Below are positions 10,075-16,579 of a DNA stretch of 64,000 bases, piece by piece. Position 1 is the stretch's first letter; every line of letters begins with the position of its first letter. Both the position numbers and the translations under genes were made by a program. A model generated the notes under the pieces. The model did not search any database, was not told the DNA's origin, and worked only from the letters and a program-made list of their open reading frames with translations. The stretch is from Blattabacterium cuenoti (lineage in GTDB: Bacteria; Bacteroidota; Bacteroidia; Flavobacteriales; Blattabacteriaceae): the NCBI RefSeq assembly GCF_014252275.1, contig NZ_CP059214.1, positions 187,906-251,905 of the forward strand, in the 5' to 3' direction.

Positions 10075-10842
10075 CTAAATAATGGAATTTATATAACTTT
10101 TGATACTTTTTTCTAATTGTTTTTCATCAATAGATTGAATAAAATTACTGCCGATGATTCCTCCGTTCGAATATTTACATACTGTTTGAAAAGATTTTTT
10201 ATCACTAATTCCAAAACCAATTAATTTTGGAATTTTAATTGGCAATTTTTTGATGCGTTGAAAAAATAATATTTGTTCACTACCAAAATGATTTTTATTT
10301 CCTGTAATTGAATTAGAAGATACTAAATATAAGAATCCACTAGTGAGTTTACTTAAAGATAAAATTCTTTCATAGCTGGTGTTTGGAGTGATAAGGAAAA
10401 TCATAGATAATGAATATTCTTTAAATAATACTTGATACTTATTTACAAACAAATCTGACGGAAGATCAGGAATAATTAATCCAGATATACCTGATTCTTT
10501 ACATTTTTTTAGAAATTTTTTTTCTCCAAACTGATATATTTGATTAAAATATCCCATAAGAATAATAGGAATGTTTATGTATTTTTTGATCGCATGGAAC
10601 TGATGAAATAACAGTGAAACATTCATTCCATTTTTTAATGATATTTTATTACTGTTTTGTATTACCCCTCCATCTGCCAAAGGATCGGAATAAGGAATTC
10701 CTACTTCTACTAAATCCACTCTAAGATCTTGTAATATTCTTAATATTTTTTCTGTACTGTCAATTTTAGGATATCCTGCGGTAAAATAAATACATAAAAT
10801 ATTTTTATTTTTTTTGTTAAATAAATAATTTAATTTATTCAT
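10075..10842 (-). CDS. trpA: Tryptophan synthase alpha subunit
   Basis: Cleaves indole-3-glycerol phosphate to indole and G3P; indole is channelled to TrpB. 255 residues, near the usual 255-268. Catalytic Glu lies in VDLVEVGIPYSDPLADG and the conserved Asp in GLIIPDLPSDL. The phosphate-binding end shows IGFGISDK and IIGSNFIQ. Last gene of the trp operon, overlapping trpB by 4 bases, consistent with 1:1 synthesis of the complex. Confidence 0.97.
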   Translation of the reverse strand: MNKLNYLFNKKNKNILCIYFTAGYPKIDSTEKILRILQDLRVDLVEVGIPYSDPLADGGVIQNSNKISLKNGMNVSLLFHQFHAIKKYINIPIILMGYFNQIYQFGEKKFLKKCKESGISGLIIPDLPSDLFVNKYQVLFKEYSLSMIFLITPNTSYERILSLSKLTSGFLYLVSSNSITGNKNHFGSEQILFFQRIKKLPIKIPKLIGFGISDKKSFQTVCKYSNGGIIGSNFIQSIDEKQLEKSIKSYINSII

Positions 10843-12029
10843 AAAACCTGAAATTTTTTAAAAAATTTTTCATATGTATGAATATCTTTATCTCCTCTAC
10901 CGGATAAAGTAATAACGACAATATCATTCTTTTTGAATGAAATTTTTTTTAATGCAGACAAAGCATGAGCACTTTCCAAAGCAGGAATAATTCCTTCTAA
11001 TTTCATCAATTCGTATGCTGATATCAAAGCTTCTTCATCAGTAGAATTTATGAAAGTAGCTCTTTTTTTTTCAAAAAGATTTGCATGCATTGGCCCAATT
11101 CCAGGATAATCTAATCCAGGAGATATAGAATAAGCAGGAAGAACTTGTCCATCTTTATCTTGTAGTAGCATCGTCATGCTTCCATGTAATATTCCTTTAG
11201 ATCCACAACAAATAGATGCAGCATTTTTTTTTGTTTTTATTCCAAGTCCAGCTGCTTCTACTGCTATAAGTTTCACTGATTTATTATTTAAAAAATGATA
11301 AAAAGATCCTGCAGCATTACTTCCACCTCCTACACAACTAATGATATAATCAGGATTTAAATATCCTTTTTCTTCTATTTGTAATTGAATTTCTTCGCTT
11401 ATAATTGACTGAAAATCACAAACTATCTGAGGATATGGATGAGGCCCTACGGTTGATCCAATGAGATAATAACTTTCATGATGATTAATCCAATAACGAA
11501 TAGATTCATTTACTGCATCTTTTAAAGTTTTATTTCCACTAGAAACTGATACTACTTTAGCTCCAAGCATTTTCATTCTAACTACATTTGTTTGTTGACG
11601 AAGGATATCTAATTCTCCCATAAAAATAATACATTTAAAATCCATTAATGCACATATTGTTGCAACGGCAACACCATGTTGGCCAGCACCTGTTTCAGCA
11701 ATAATATGTTTTTTACCTAATTGTTTTGCAATCAAACTTTGTCCGATTGCATTATTGATTTTATGTGAACCGGTATGGTTTAAATCTTCTCTTTTTAAAA
11801 AAATTTTTGCATTGTATATTTCGGAATATTTTTTACAGAAAAAAAGAGGCGTTGGTCTACCAACATAATTTTTTAATATTTTTCTATACAATTTTTGAAA
11901 ATCATGATTTTTTTTACATTTCTGATTGTATGTATTTATCAGTTCATTAATATTATGATTTAACATTTCTGGAATAAATGATCCTCCAAATTTCCCGTAA
12001 AATCCATTTTCGTCAACAAAATATTTCAT
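10839..12029 (-). CDS. trpB: Tryptophan synthase beta subunit
   Basis: PLP-dependent condensation of indole with serine to tryptophan. 396 residues, full length. Motifs: GRPTPLFFCKKYSE, the Schiff-base lysine in LNHTGSHKINNAIGQ, AETGAGQHGVA, the GGGSNAAG phosphate-binding loop, and LSGRGDKD near the C-terminus. It overlaps trpF upstream and trpA downstream by 4 bases each. Confidence 0.98.
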   Translation of the reverse strand: MKYFVDENGFYGKFGGSFIPEMLNHNINELINTYNQKCKKNHDFQKLYRKILKNYVGRPTPLFFCKKYSEIYNAKIFLKREDLNHTGSHKINNAIGQSLIAKQLGKKHIIAETGAGQHGVAVATICALMDFKCIIFMGELDILRQQTNVVRMKMLGAKVVSVSSGNKTLKDAVNESIRYWINHHESYYLIGSTVGPHPYPQIVCDFQSIISEEIQLQIEEKGYLNPDYIISCVGGGSNAAGSFYHFLNNKSVKLIAVEAAGLGIKTKKNAASICCGSKGILHGSMTMLLQDKDGQVLPAYSISPGLDYPGIGPMHANLFEKKRATFINSTDEEALISAYELMKLEGIIPALESAHALSALKKISFKKNDIVVITLSGRGDKDIHTYEKFFKKFQVL

Positions 12030-12640
12030 AAACTTCTTATTTCTTTTATAAAAATTTCTAACATTTTTTCATTCTTCTTTCCAGGAAAAATTTCAAATTT
12101 ACTATTAATATCAATGCCAAATATTTTTGGATGTGATATTTTTTTTATTTTATCAATATCTTTTAAACTAATCCCACCACTTAAGAAAAATTTTATATTT
12201 CCATCATATTCTTGAATTCTTTCCCATTGAAATTTTTTTCCGCTTCCTCCATTGTTATCCCATAAAAAATAAGAACAAAAAGGAATGTATTCTATTATTT
12301 TTTTAAAAGAAAAAAAATTATGTATTTTAAAACTTTTAATGATTTTAAATCCTTTTTCAAATAATTTTCTACATAAACAAGGAGATTCCATTCCATGTAA
12401 TTGGATAAAGTCTAATTTATTTTTCTTGTATATTTCAACTATTAAATTTTCATTTTCGTTAACAAAAACCCCCGTTTTAAATATATTTTTTGGAATATTT
12501 GGAACAGAAAAAGATTTACCAACAAATCTAGGAGATTGATCATAAAATATAAATCCAATAAAATCAGGATATAAATGAGATATCTTATTAATATTATATT
12601 TTAATCCACATATTTTTATTTTTAATAATCGATTATGCAT
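12026..12640 (-). CDS. trpF: Phosphoribosylanthranilate isomerase
   Basis: Amadori isomerase between TrpD and TrpC. 204 residues, standard for a stand-alone TrpF. The catalytic Cys sits in KICGL near residue 11, DFIGFIFYDQSPRFV follows, then a conserved FIQLHG segment, and LSGGIS marks the phosphate site. The general-acid Asp is expected at GIDINSKFE near the end. It is not fused to TrpC, unlike the enteric arrangement. Confidence 0.96.
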   Translation of the reverse strand: MHNRLLKIKICGLKYNINKISHLYPDFIGFIFYDQSPRFVGKSFSVPNIPKNIFKTGVFVNENENLIVEIYKKNKLDFIQLHGMESPCLCRKLFEKGFKIIKSFKIHNFFSFKKIIEYIPFCSYFLWDNNGGSGKKFQWERIQEYDGNIKFFLSGGISLKDIDKIKKISHPKIFGIDINSKFEIFPGKKNEKMLEIFIKEIRSL

Positions 12641-12663: not shown

Positions 12664-13446
12664 TTAATTTTCTAAGGATTGAATAAAATTTTTACAAACT
12701 TCTCCTGGATCCCTATTCTTCATAAAATATTCTCCAATCAAGAATCCTTGAAATCCTATTTTTCTTAGTTGCATAATACGATTTTTATTATTAATTCCAC
12801 TCTCTGCTATCTTTATGTAATCTTTCGGAATTTTCGAACATAGTTCGAAACAAAGATGATGATCTACGAAAAAATTATTTAAATCTCGATTATTAATTCC
12901 TATAAAATCTATATAATCTGTAATATTCTCTAATTCATGCTCATTATGTACTTCGAATAATACTTCTAGTCCAAGATTTTTAGCAAGTTTTGAAAAATTT
13001 TTGATTTCTTCTTTTTTTAAAAATTTTGATATTAATAAAATCACATCTGATCCTATCGATTTGGATTCTATAATTTGATATTCATCAATAATAAAATCTT
13101 TTCTTAACAAAGGGATATTTAATAACATTCGAGATGTTTCAAGGTTTTCATTTTTACCAGAAAAAAAATGAAAATCTGTTAAAATTGATACTCCGCAAAC
13201 ACCTGCATTTTCATAATCTTTAACTACCTTTTCTAACTTAATATTCTTATTAATTATACCTTTAGAAGGAGATTTGATTTTAAATTCTGCAATAATTCCT
13301 GTATTACTTTTTACGATCGATTTTTTAAGCGAAAACGTTTTTCTTTTAAAAAAAGAATGTTTTTCTAACTTTTGAATTGGATTGATTTTCTTCCTAATTT
13401 GAACTTCCTTTTTTTTTGTATACAAAATTTTTTCAAGAATATTCAT
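12664..13446 (-). CDS. trpC: Indole-3-glycerol phosphate synthase
   Basis: TIM-barrel enzyme closing the indole ring from CdRP. 260 residues, normal. Key segments are IAEFKIKSPSKG with the catalytic lysine, VSILTDFHFFSG, LLRKDFIIDEYQI with a second catalytic Lys, VLFEVHNEHEL with catalytic Glu, IGINNRDLNNF, AESGI and GFLIGEYFMK. Its start overlaps the end of trpD by 4 bases. Confidence 0.97.
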   Translation of the reverse strand: MNILEKILYTKKKEVQIRKKINPIQKLEKHSFFKRKTFSLKKSIVKSNTGIIAEFKIKSPSKGIINKNIKLEKVVKDYENAGVCGVSILTDFHFFSGKNENLETSRMLLNIPLLRKDFIIDEYQIIESKSIGSDVILLISKFLKKEEIKNFSKLAKNLGLEVLFEVHNEHELENITDYIDFIGINNRDLNNFFVDHHLCFELCSKIPKDYIKIAESGINNKNRIMQLRKIGFQGFLIGEYFMKNRDPGEVCKNFIQSLEN

Positions 13447-14438
13447 ACACTTAAAAATTTTTTTAAAACATTTTTTGCTCTTCCACTGGTTAGAGCATAT
13501 TCCGCTTTATTATAATTTTCTTCAAAACTATCACAATTCATAATATTCAAAGCAAAGGTTGCATTCGTTAAAACCACTGTATTTTGAAAAATACTTCCTT
13601 TTCCTGATAAAATATTTATGAATGTTCGAACATTATCTTTTATATTATTTCCTCCTCTTAATTCAAAAGGATTTACATTCACATGTTTTTTATTAACTAA
13701 TTGTTCCATATAATAATATCGTTCTCCTCTAGAAGTATAACATTTAACATCATTAGTAAGTGTAATTTCATCGTATCCATCTACGCTATGAATAATAGAA
13801 TAATTACTATCCATTTCTTGATACAAATAATTATAAATTCTTGCTAATTCTAAGTTACTTACTCCTAATAGCTGATTTTTTGGATATCCTGGATTCAATA
13901 ATGGACCAAGTACATTAAAAATAGTTCTTACCCCTAAATTTTTCCTTACATCCATCATATGATTCAAACATGGATGAAATATAGGAGAATGTAAATAACA
14001 AATTCCTACTTTATCCAATTGGTATTTTAATTTATCTTCTTGATTTGTAAATTGACATCCGAGTTCTTTCAATAAATTTGAAGATCCTGTTGTGGATGTA
14101 TATCCAAAATTTCCATGTTTGATTACCTTTTTTCCTGTTCCTGCAACAATAAAACAAGCTAAAGTGGAAATATTAAAGGTATTCTTTCCATCTCCTCCTG
14201 TTCCAACAATGTCAATAGCATTAAAATCATTAAAATTTAACTTAATAGATAACTCCATTATTGCTTTTTTAAATCCTTTTATTTCTAATAACGTTGGATT
14301 TCTCATATTATATACAGATATAATAGCGATAGATTGAGTAGTATTTATTTTTCCATTTGATAGTTCTATAATAAGATTTTTTGCCTCAGATTCTGTTAAA
14401 GTTTTTTCTTCAAAAAGATGTTTTAATACTTGATTCAT
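13443..14438 (-). CDS. trpD: Anthranilate phosphoribosyltransferase
   Basis: Transfers the phosphoribosyl group of PRPP to anthranilate. 331 residues, typical. PRPP/Mg-binding motifs GTGGDGKNTFNIST and KHGNFGYTSTTGSSNLL are present, as are the FLF-like HPCLNHMMDVRKNLGVRT stretch and NVLGPLLNP. It stands alone, not fused to TrpG, and lies between trpG and trpC in the operon. Confidence 0.97.
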   Translation of the reverse strand: MNQVLKHLFEEKTLTESEAKNLIIELSNGKINTTQSIAIISVYNMRNPTLLEIKGFKKAIMELSIKLNFNDFNAIDIVGTGGDGKNTFNISTLACFIVAGTGKKVIKHGNFGYTSTTGSSNLLKELGCQFTNQEDKLKYQLDKVGICYLHSPIFHPCLNHMMDVRKNLGVRTIFNVLGPLLNPGYPKNQLLGVSNLELARIYNYLYQEMDSNYSIIHSVDGYDEITLTNDVKCYTSRGERYYYMEQLVNKKHVNVNPFELRGGNNIKDNVRTFINILSGKGSIFQNTVVLTNATFALNIMNCDSFEENYNKAEYALTSGRAKNVLKKFLSV

Positions 14439-14456: not shown

Positions 14457-15029
14457 TTAATTGAGCCAATTATCTATTATTTTTTCTCCATATGGAGTTA
14501 AAAGAGATTCTGGATGAAATTGAACTCCACATACATCATAAAATTTATGACGTAGTGCCATAATCTCTCCATTATTACCAACAGCAGTTATTTTCAATTC
14601 TTTGGGAAAATTTTTATGAGAAATAATCCAAGAATGGTAACGTCCGACTATAATCTCTCTAGGTAATTTTTTAAAAAGAATTTCTTCAGAATCAATAATT
14701 TTTATTACACTGGATATTCCGTGATATACTTTTTTTGTATTAATTAATTGAGCTCCAAATACTTCGCCAATAGCTTGTTGACCCAAACAAACACCAAAAA
14801 TACTCTTAGTTGATGCAAAGGTTTTTACAAGAGGTTTTAAGATATGAGCTTCATCGGGGATTCCCGGCCCTGGAGAGAGAATAATCTTATTGTATTTCTC
14901 CACATCTGATAAATTAATTTCATTATTTCTTGATACTTTTACAGAATTTTTAGTTAATTTTTTAACTACATAAACAAGATTATAAGTAAAAGAATCATAG
15001 TTGTCTAAAATTAATATTTTCTTCATCAT
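14457..15029 (-). CDS. trpG: Anthranilate synthase glutaminase subunit
   Basis: Glutamine amidotransferase supplying ammonia to TrpE; such subunits may also serve PabB. 190 residues. It shows DNYDSFTYNLV at the N-terminus, LSPGPGIPDEA, nucleophile Cys near residue 80 in GVCLGQQAIGE, and His/Glu in VQFHPESLLTPYG. It lies 6 bases after trpE, so stoichiometric synthesis is likely. Confidence 0.97.
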   Translation of the reverse strand: MMKKILILDNYDSFTYNLVYVVKKLTKNSVKVSRNNEINLSDVEKYNKIILSPGPGIPDEAHILKPLVKTFASTKSIFGVCLGQQAIGEVFGAQLINTKKVYHGISSVIKIIDSEEILFKKLPREIIVGRYHSWIISHKNFPKELKITAVGNNGEIMALRHKFYDVCGVQFHPESLLTPYGEKIIDNWLN

Positions 15030-15035
15030 AATACT

Positions 15036-16442
15036 TCATATAAATTTGGCTAATTCTATAGATTTAAACAATGCCATCAGTTTATTATTCACTTCTTCGT
15101 ATTCTGTTTTTTCTTTTGAATCAGCTACAACCCCAGCTCCAGCTTGGAAAAATAGAATATTATCTTTGCTAAGAAAAGAACGAATTGCAATAGCCGTATT
15201 GACATATGAATTTTTCATTCCAAAAAATCCAATAGCACCTCCATATATTCCTCTGTTTTGATTTTCTATTTCATCTATTAATTTCATGGCTTTATATTTA
15301 GGTGCTCCTGAAAGTGTTCCCGATGGAAAAGTATCAACAAATACTTTGATAAATGATACATTATTTTCTAATTTTCCAGAAACTTGGGATACCATATGTA
15401 ATACATGCGAATAATATTGAATTTCTTTAAATTTTTCTATTTTTATATCAGAAGAGTTCTTACTTAAATCATTTCTAGCTAAATCCACTAACATAACATG
15501 CTCTGAATTCTCTTTGGGATCGTTTAAAAGAATATTCGATAGTTTTTTATTTTTTTTTTTATTTTTCGTTTTTCTTATAGTTCCTGCTATAGGATTAATA
15601 TAAGCAATTCCATCATCAATGATTAATTGAGATTCAGGAGAAGAACCAAATAATTTGTAATCTCCATAATCAAAATAAAATAGATATGGAGATGGATTAA
15701 TGAACCGTAATGCACGATATACATTAAATTCATCTCCTTTAAATTTTTGTTGAAATTGACGAGATAAAACAATTTGAAAAACATCTCCTCGTAAACAGGA
15801 ATCTATTCCTTTTTTTACCATACTTTTATATTCATTTTCCGTAACATTCGAAGATCGAACACCAACAGGTCTAAATGGATAATATGAAAATTTATTCTTT
15901 TTTGCTATATCTATCAGTTGATCAATTTTTGTTGTTTTTTCGTTATCCATTTGGTGTTCAATAAAATGTAATTCGTTATAGAAATGATGAAAAACAATTA
16001 AATTCTTATAAAATACTAATCGTATTTGAGGAATATTATATGACTTTTGAATCGGAACATGAAATGCAATTTTTTCAAAATATTGAATACTATCATAAGA
16101 TAAATATCCATATAAACCAGAATAATAAATCGAATAATTATCGATATGAAATTTATCTAGAAAATCTTCTATCAAATTTTTTATATGTAATTTATTTTTT
16201 ATAAAAACGTGTTTATGTACCTTATTTGGATATAAAATTTTCAATACATTATCATGTAAAATCAATTCTGATATTGGATTTAAACAAAAAATAGAAGAAT
16301 TATTTTTAAATAATTTAGAATCATGAAATTCTAAAAGTAACGTATTTGGGAAAATGTCTCTTAACTTTAAATATAATTCTATAGGTGTAATACTATCCAT
16401 AAAAATTTTTTTCTGAATAGTTTTAAAATTAAATTTAAACAT
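15036..16442 (-). CDS. trpE: Anthranilate synthase component I, with altered feedback motif
   Basis: Converts chorismate to anthranilate, the first step of tryptophan synthesis. I choose the ATG at 16440-16442 (468 residues) because the next 14 residues and TPIELYLKLRD look like the family start; the open frame continues upstream to 16514 without recognisable similarity. The chorismate-binding domain is intact: NPSPYLFYFDYG, GSSPE, PIAGTIRKT, HVMLVDLARND, FPSGTLSGAPK, GGAIGFFG and QAGAGVVADS. The tryptophan-sensing motif, normally LLES, reads LLLEF, with Phe39 (TTT at 16326-16328) where enteric enzymes have Ser40. Enteric S40F is feedback-resistant, so a deregulated enzyme is inferred. Confidence 0.95.
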   Translation of the reverse strand: MFKFNFKTIQKKIFMDSITPIELYLKLRDIFPNTLLLEFHDSKLFKNNSSIFCLNPISELILHDNVLKILYPNKVHKHVFIKNKLHIKNLIEDFLDKFHIDNYSIYYSGLYGYLSYDSIQYFEKIAFHVPIQKSYNIPQIRLVFYKNLIVFHHFYNELHFIEHQMDNEKTTKIDQLIDIAKKNKFSYYPFRPVGVRSSNVTENEYKSMVKKGIDSCLRGDVFQIVLSRQFQQKFKGDEFNVYRALRFINPSPYLFYFDYGDYKLFGSSPESQLIIDDGIAYINPIAGTIRKTKNKKKNKKLSNILLNDPKENSEHVMLVDLARNDLSKNSSDIKIEKFKEIQYYSHVLHMVSQVSGKLENNVSFIKVFVDTFPSGTLSGAPKYKAMKLIDEIENQNRGIYGGAIGFFGMKNSYVNTAIAIRSFLSKDNILFFQAGAGVVADSKEKTEYEEVNNKLMALFKSIELAKFI

Positions 16443-16579
16443 GCTTTTATGGTTATTATTGATGAATAAAAGACTTTCTATTTGAAATGAATAGCCTGAA
16501 AACAAGGATTGCAAAAGAACAATAGGGAAATCTATTTGCTTTTTTGAGTTTGATAATAAATCACAATCGTCTTTCTATT

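Follow-up and report, generated by a model that had tools for sequence, protein, structure and literature searches.

The window analysed here is a stretch of 64,000 nucleotides covering positions 187906-251905 of the single 561,052-base contig of a genome (about 561 kb) from the cockroach symbiont genus Blattabacterium. This genome belongs to the same GTDB genus as G069 and the other Blattabacterium, a genus with 48 members. On its minus strand the window carries the tryptophan operon trpEGDCFBA, which is complete, as an earlier sequence-only reading of this DNA had stated, and whose genes lie contiguous and in order from 16442 to 10075. The genes and the TrpE residues considered in this work are listed below.

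10075-10842, minus strand: trpA, tryptophan synthase alpha, identified from sequence
10839-12029, minus strand: trpB, tryptophan synthase beta
12026-12640, minus strand: trpF, phosphoribosylanthranilate isomerase, identified from sequence
12664-13446, minus strand: trpC, indole-3-glycerol phosphate synthase, identified from sequence
13443-14438, minus strand: trpD, anthranilate phosphoribosyltransferase, identified from sequence
14457-15029, minus strand: trpG, glutamine amidotransferase subunit, 190 aa
15036-16442, minus strand: trpE, anthranilate synthase component I, 468 aa, open reading frame and translation, ATG at 16442 and stop codon ending at 15036
15207-15212, minus strand: Asn411-Ser412, hairpin change found throughout the genus by alignment, with a one-residue insertion and no counterpart of E. 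coli Gly460
15984-15986, minus strand: His153, aligned to mycobacterial TrpE with M. tuberculosis His170, a dimer-interface feedback residue
16293-16295, minus strand: Ser50, second serine of LLES-X10-S (E. coli Ser51, M. tuberculosis Ser67) by alignment, conserved in 44/44 genus members
16326-16328, minus strand: codon TTT, Phe39, at the feedback-serine position of LLES (E. coli Ser40), from the sequence and alignment with E. coli TrpE

The trpE frame is also open from a TTG upstream, at 16514, but homologues align from the ATG at 16442. The best equivalog model for the protein was TIGR00564 (trpE_most), with an E-value of 1e-122 and 410 bits against a curated cut-off of 518, and a Pfam Anth_synt_I_N match scored above its cut-off. 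Identity to the TrpE of relatives was 46-76%. The TrpEs of free-living Flavobacteriia and other Bacteroidota are orthologous (42-55% identity), share the same catalytic motifs and have a complete LLES-X10-S motif. PIAGT marks TrpE and PIKGT marks PabB, and an identity as PabB was ruled out for the window protein by its PIAGT motif together with the gene context. From the 48 genus genomes 44 TrpE sequences were obtained, in which PIAGT and LARNDL are present throughout, GTLSGAPK in 43 (window included) and NPSPY in 42. The catalytic-domain motifs thus bear out the view that the rest of the enzyme is intact. No RNA leader of a known type was found near the trp operon.

The tryptophan-sensing motif of the window TrpE reads LLLEF, and its Phe39 aligns with Ser40 of the E. 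coli enzyme. Re-reading of the sequence gave LLEF for residues 36-39 and the codon TTT at 16328-16326, as first noted. The equation of this position with the feedback serine also held. E. coli TrpE S40F and C. glutamicum TrpE S38R are both in use as feedback-resistant alleles (PMC9100643). In the Serratia marcescens enzyme the residues that bind Trp include Ser40 (PMC10464499), and in Mycobacterium tuberculosis LLES-X10-S has been described as the allosteric Trp-binding motif (PMC6437058). This full motif is absent from the window TrpE, which has LLEF and retains the second Ser. A bulky residue at the Ser40 position combined with intact catalytic motifs makes the window protein resemble the S40F type of enzyme. 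The laboratory feedback-resistant TrpE variants (E. coli S40F, C. glutamicum S38R, M. tuberculosis S67A and H170N/R) concern the same motif, and S40F is the same substitution (PMC9100643, PMC6437058, PMC8379015). Unlike these laboratory-selected alleles, the Blattabacterium changes are natural, fixed in lineages and recurrent in the genus.

Variation at site 39 was examined by comparing the 44 genus sequences with 71 TrpEs of free-living Bacteroidota taken from the same order, from other orders of the class and from other classes; a smaller free-living set comprised 35 sequences. The free-living enzymes differ from those of Blattabacterium in that the site is invariantly Ser (71/71). The sequence-only reading had named this comparison as a check, and Phe proved not to be a common residue of free-living relatives. 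Within the genus the site is occupied by Ser in 15 sequences, Phe in 10, Tyr in seven, Thr in five, Ile in four, and Met, Asn and Leu in one each. Phe is therefore one of seven different replacements of the feedback Ser, and the change is not peculiar to a single genome. Phe39 is neither a sequencing error nor a singleton, because TTT is shared by five other genomes of the clade in which the window falls, and Phe occurs in 10/44 sequences across the genus. As had been noted, TCT to TTT is a single transition, and of the 15 genus members with Ser at the site, 14 indeed encode it as TCT. The replacement codons include TTT, TAT and ACT derived from TCT, further ATT, ATA, ATG, AAT and TTA, and are mostly single-base, AT-rich changes. 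At the same position six other symbionts of the family have Cys (two), Ser (two) or a deletion (two); in the latter two (G074 and G075; L125 and L126) the deletion directly follows LLLE or LLFE and removes the feedback serine.

The variability of site 39 is exceptional. The 71 free-living TrpEs share 73 invariant columns, and of these site 39 varies by far the most in the genus, with an entropy of 2.48 bits against 0.98 for the next column; 62 of the 73 never vary in the genus. It also ranks first of the 103 columns that are invariant in the 35-sequence set. Since the site had been named beforehand from biochemistry, such a pre-named column would come out as the extreme one with a probability of about 1 in 73 to 1 in 103. 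Nine other columns of the 35-sequence set are invariant for Ser, and eight of these are Ser in all 44 genus members, for which reason AT pressure alone does not explain the pattern. The other columns of the pocket (Glu39, Ser51, Asn288-Phe294 and Gly454 in E. coli numbering) are essentially invariant, being conserved in 42-44 of the 44 sequences, which speaks against a collapse of the entire pocket. A residue list that Caligiuri and Bauerle reportedly gave in 1991 guided only the choice of columns displayed. The conserved pocket columns may have a structural role, or the pocket may remain in use and bind something.

Two further positions in trpE stood out in the alignments. The hairpin that corresponds to E. 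coli TrpE 457-461, which by sequence lies near the interface between regulatory and catalytic parts, has a one-residue insertion in all 44 genus TrpEs, and the Gly lost from it never varies in the free-living set or in the six other symbionts of the family. At residue 293 (15564-15566, minus strand), in the loop after PIAGT, Gly is replaced by Lys, Glu, Asn, Ile and others in the genus. This was the second most variable column of those invariant in the 35-sequence set and dropped out when the wider free-living set was used.

Selection at site 39 was evaluated with a codon model on a fixed tree, with site rates expressed relative to the gene-wide synonymous rate. Gene-wide omega for trpE was 0.1. 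For site 39 the estimates were beta 0.5 and alpha 0.4, corresponding to a dN/dS of about 1.25, and neutrality was not rejected (p = 0.84 against 1). Setting beta to 0.1, close to the gene mean, worsened the fit by about 14 log-likelihood units. With alpha fixed at 1, a beta of 1 was worse than the best beta by about 4.6 log-likelihood units; full neutrality is thus disfavored and some constraint remains. The site is under strong relaxation with some residual constraint, and the codon model found no positive selection on it. The suggestion that the change represents adaptive deregulation for export is not borne out by this near-neutral rate. Restriction of the replacements to uncharged residues is not unusual, since charged residues were absent in 22% of simulated neutral runs. 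Only about 1% of the runs kept all residues within the observed set, a figure from which we draw no claim as the set was picked post hoc.

The history of the site was traced on a FastTree phylogeny of 3383 aligned residues from ten neighboring genes, with trpE excluded. Parsimony gave 18 amino-acid steps at site 39, and 9 changes between Ser and non-Ser, or 14 if Ser was never regained. The balance of losses and regains is uncertain because the position of the root has low support (0.58) and none of the deepest lineages has Ser. The clade of the window (G000, G020, G063, G017, G009, G010 and G028) consists of fast-evolving members with small genomes, of which six have Phe and one has Leu (TTA), and the Phe of the window is therefore probably old within this clade. 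G069, apparently strain Bge of the German cockroach, has Phe in a separate clade, where it looks to have arisen independently.

Another feedback residue shows a related pattern. Column 153 corresponds to the first His of the mycobacterial HHEGT motif, and the window TrpE has His here. Replacement of the equivalent His170 of M. tuberculosis by Asn or Arg lowers inhibition by Trp more than 100-fold or about 250-fold, respectively (PMC6437058, PMC8379015), and the roughly 250 times less Trp-sensitive H170R variant has a little altered kcat (PMC8379015). His is present in 70 of the 71 free-living sequences and lost in 12 of the 44 genus members. Column 153 is the second most variable in the genus among the 88 columns whose conservation in the free-living TrpEs is 97% or higher. 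Eleven of the 12 members without His153 also lack Ser39 (Fisher p = 0.035, uncorrected for relatedness and reflecting only about 4 changes on the tree).

The prephenate dehydratase PheA served as a comparison. Its ACT-domain segment GSLS...MTKIQSIP, which from general knowledge of such enzymes we take to be the Phe-binding motif, is retained in 23 of 24 genus members; the free-living comparison set was small, with six sequences of which two are of divergent type. Retention of this motif argues against a general decay of allosteric sites. The exception, G035 (L162), has a degenerate ACT motif, KIQY--II versus KIQSIP, with a four-residue insertion, and has lost Trp synthesis too. TrpE is lacking in five of the 48 genus genomes (G007, G025, G026, G035 and G060), and a search of these five for TrpB found none. 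The tryptophan pathway appears to have been lost in them, and such losses are described in the literature for symbionts of Cryptocercus and Mastotermes.

A related case is that of Buchnera, likewise a tryptophan-provisioning insect symbiont with an intact TrpE, encoded on pTrp plasmids. Unlike in Blattabacterium, the site in the pTrp TrpEs is Ser in 3/8, Thr in 5/8 and a bulky residue in none of the eight. The five with Thr (L211-L213, L215 and L218) have LLET instead of LLES, although the motif has been described as conserved in Buchnera. Published work regards TrpE feedback in Buchnera as retained and overcome through amplification of trpEG (PMC5054487). For Buchnera prephenate dehydratase, point changes in the allosteric site have been proposed to mitigate feedback (Jimenez et al. 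2000, as cited in PMC5054487); this concerns another enzyme and effector than the Blattabacterium changes, and Blattabacterium PheA keeps its Phe-binding motif in 23 of 24 members.

We consider a repeated natural loss or weakening of Trp feedback across Blattabacterium the best explanation for these observations, with a probability of roughly two in three. It is better described as a relaxation of the tryptophan-sensing site that recurred throughout the genus than as an adaptive change in this one strain. The purifying selection that holds Ser in free-living Bacteroidota has been relaxed across the genus, with the active site still strongly constrained, and Ser has been replaced many times, mostly through single-base AT-rich changes. 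Where the site carries a bulky residue (Phe, Tyr, Ile, Met or Leu, perhaps also Asn), tryptophan would probably bind the allosteric pocket poorly or not at all, and chorismate would keep flowing to anthranilate at any tryptophan level. A likely reason is that the host drains tryptophan, in which case the product would seldom accumulate and feedback would have stopped mattering. Counting against full loss of feedback, Ser is kept in 15 genus members and Thr in five. A more detailed version, with selection for tryptophan feedback lost genus-wide, the sensing serine lost many times independently, the dimer-interface histidine lost afterwards in some lineages, and phenylalanine feedback on PheA kept, has in our estimate somewhat better than even odds and would make the genus a natural series of allosteric decay.

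Adaptive deregulation, in line with the sequence-only reading, would mean that selection acting through the host favored export of tryptophan and so fixed feedback-resistant substitutions time after time. It would fit the parallel occurrence of Phe and Tyr in separate clades and the retention of most of the trp cluster in a gene-losing genome. It would also fit the fact that PheA keeps its Phe-binding motif and TrpE not its sensing site, which speaks against general allosteric decay. We nevertheless regard it as quite unlikely, as dN/dS at the site is not above 1 and the replacements are those that AT-biased mutation yields from TCT. Moreover, the 15 lineages that keep Ser have the same export role, and the absence of TrpE from five genomes in which TrpB was not found either argues against a uniformly strong demand for tryptophan. 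At the other extreme, the substitutions might have no functional meaning and reflect chance and AT pressure in a fast-evolving, drifting genome. The window genome does belong to a fast-evolving clade of small genomes, the replacement codons are AT-rich, and all nine genomes under 600 kb lack Ser and Thr at the site, although these nine represent only two clades. This explanation is hardly credible given that eight of the nine other outgroup-invariant Ser columns are unchanged in 44 genomes, and the ranking of columns, with site 39 as an extreme outlier, has already largely refuted it. Drift is part of the best explanation as well, but there it acts on site 39 in particular.

Feedback may instead have been kept, with a pocket that re-adapted around Phe, Tyr or Ile such that tryptophan or a related ligand inhibits with altered affinity. 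The conservation of the other pocket residues and the restricted, uncharged residue set at the site are in line with this. There is also an archaeal precedent: going by a title cited in PMC5054487 (Tang et al. 2001), the anthranilate synthase of a hyperthermophilic archaeon is inhibited by Trp without LLES, which would mean that LLES is not always needed for inhibition. We find retained feedback unlikely since the same substitution is a feedback-resistant allele in E. coli (PMC9100643), since eight different residues occur at the site and offer no common replacement to re-adapt around, and since the His170 equivalent is lost in many of the same genomes.

In the literature on anthranilate and feedback inhibition in Blattabacterium we found no report of this site; most subscription papers lay outside the scope of the search and novelty is provisional. 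Overproduction of amino acids by symbionts is usually ascribed to gene amplification or split pathways, with TrpE feedback assumed to be intact, as in Buchnera. If TrpE of Blattabacterium has indeed lost feedback repeatedly, nature would have provided enzymes with Ser, Thr, Phe, Tyr and Ile against a single genus background, and their allosteric decay could be dated and assayed. The same Phe is apparently present in strain Bge, whose host, the German cockroach, is a common laboratory insect, and this makes a test practical. It could then be asked whether the host has taken over the control of tryptophan. With both amino acids supplied by one symbiont, one enzyme would be regulated and its sister enzyme not.
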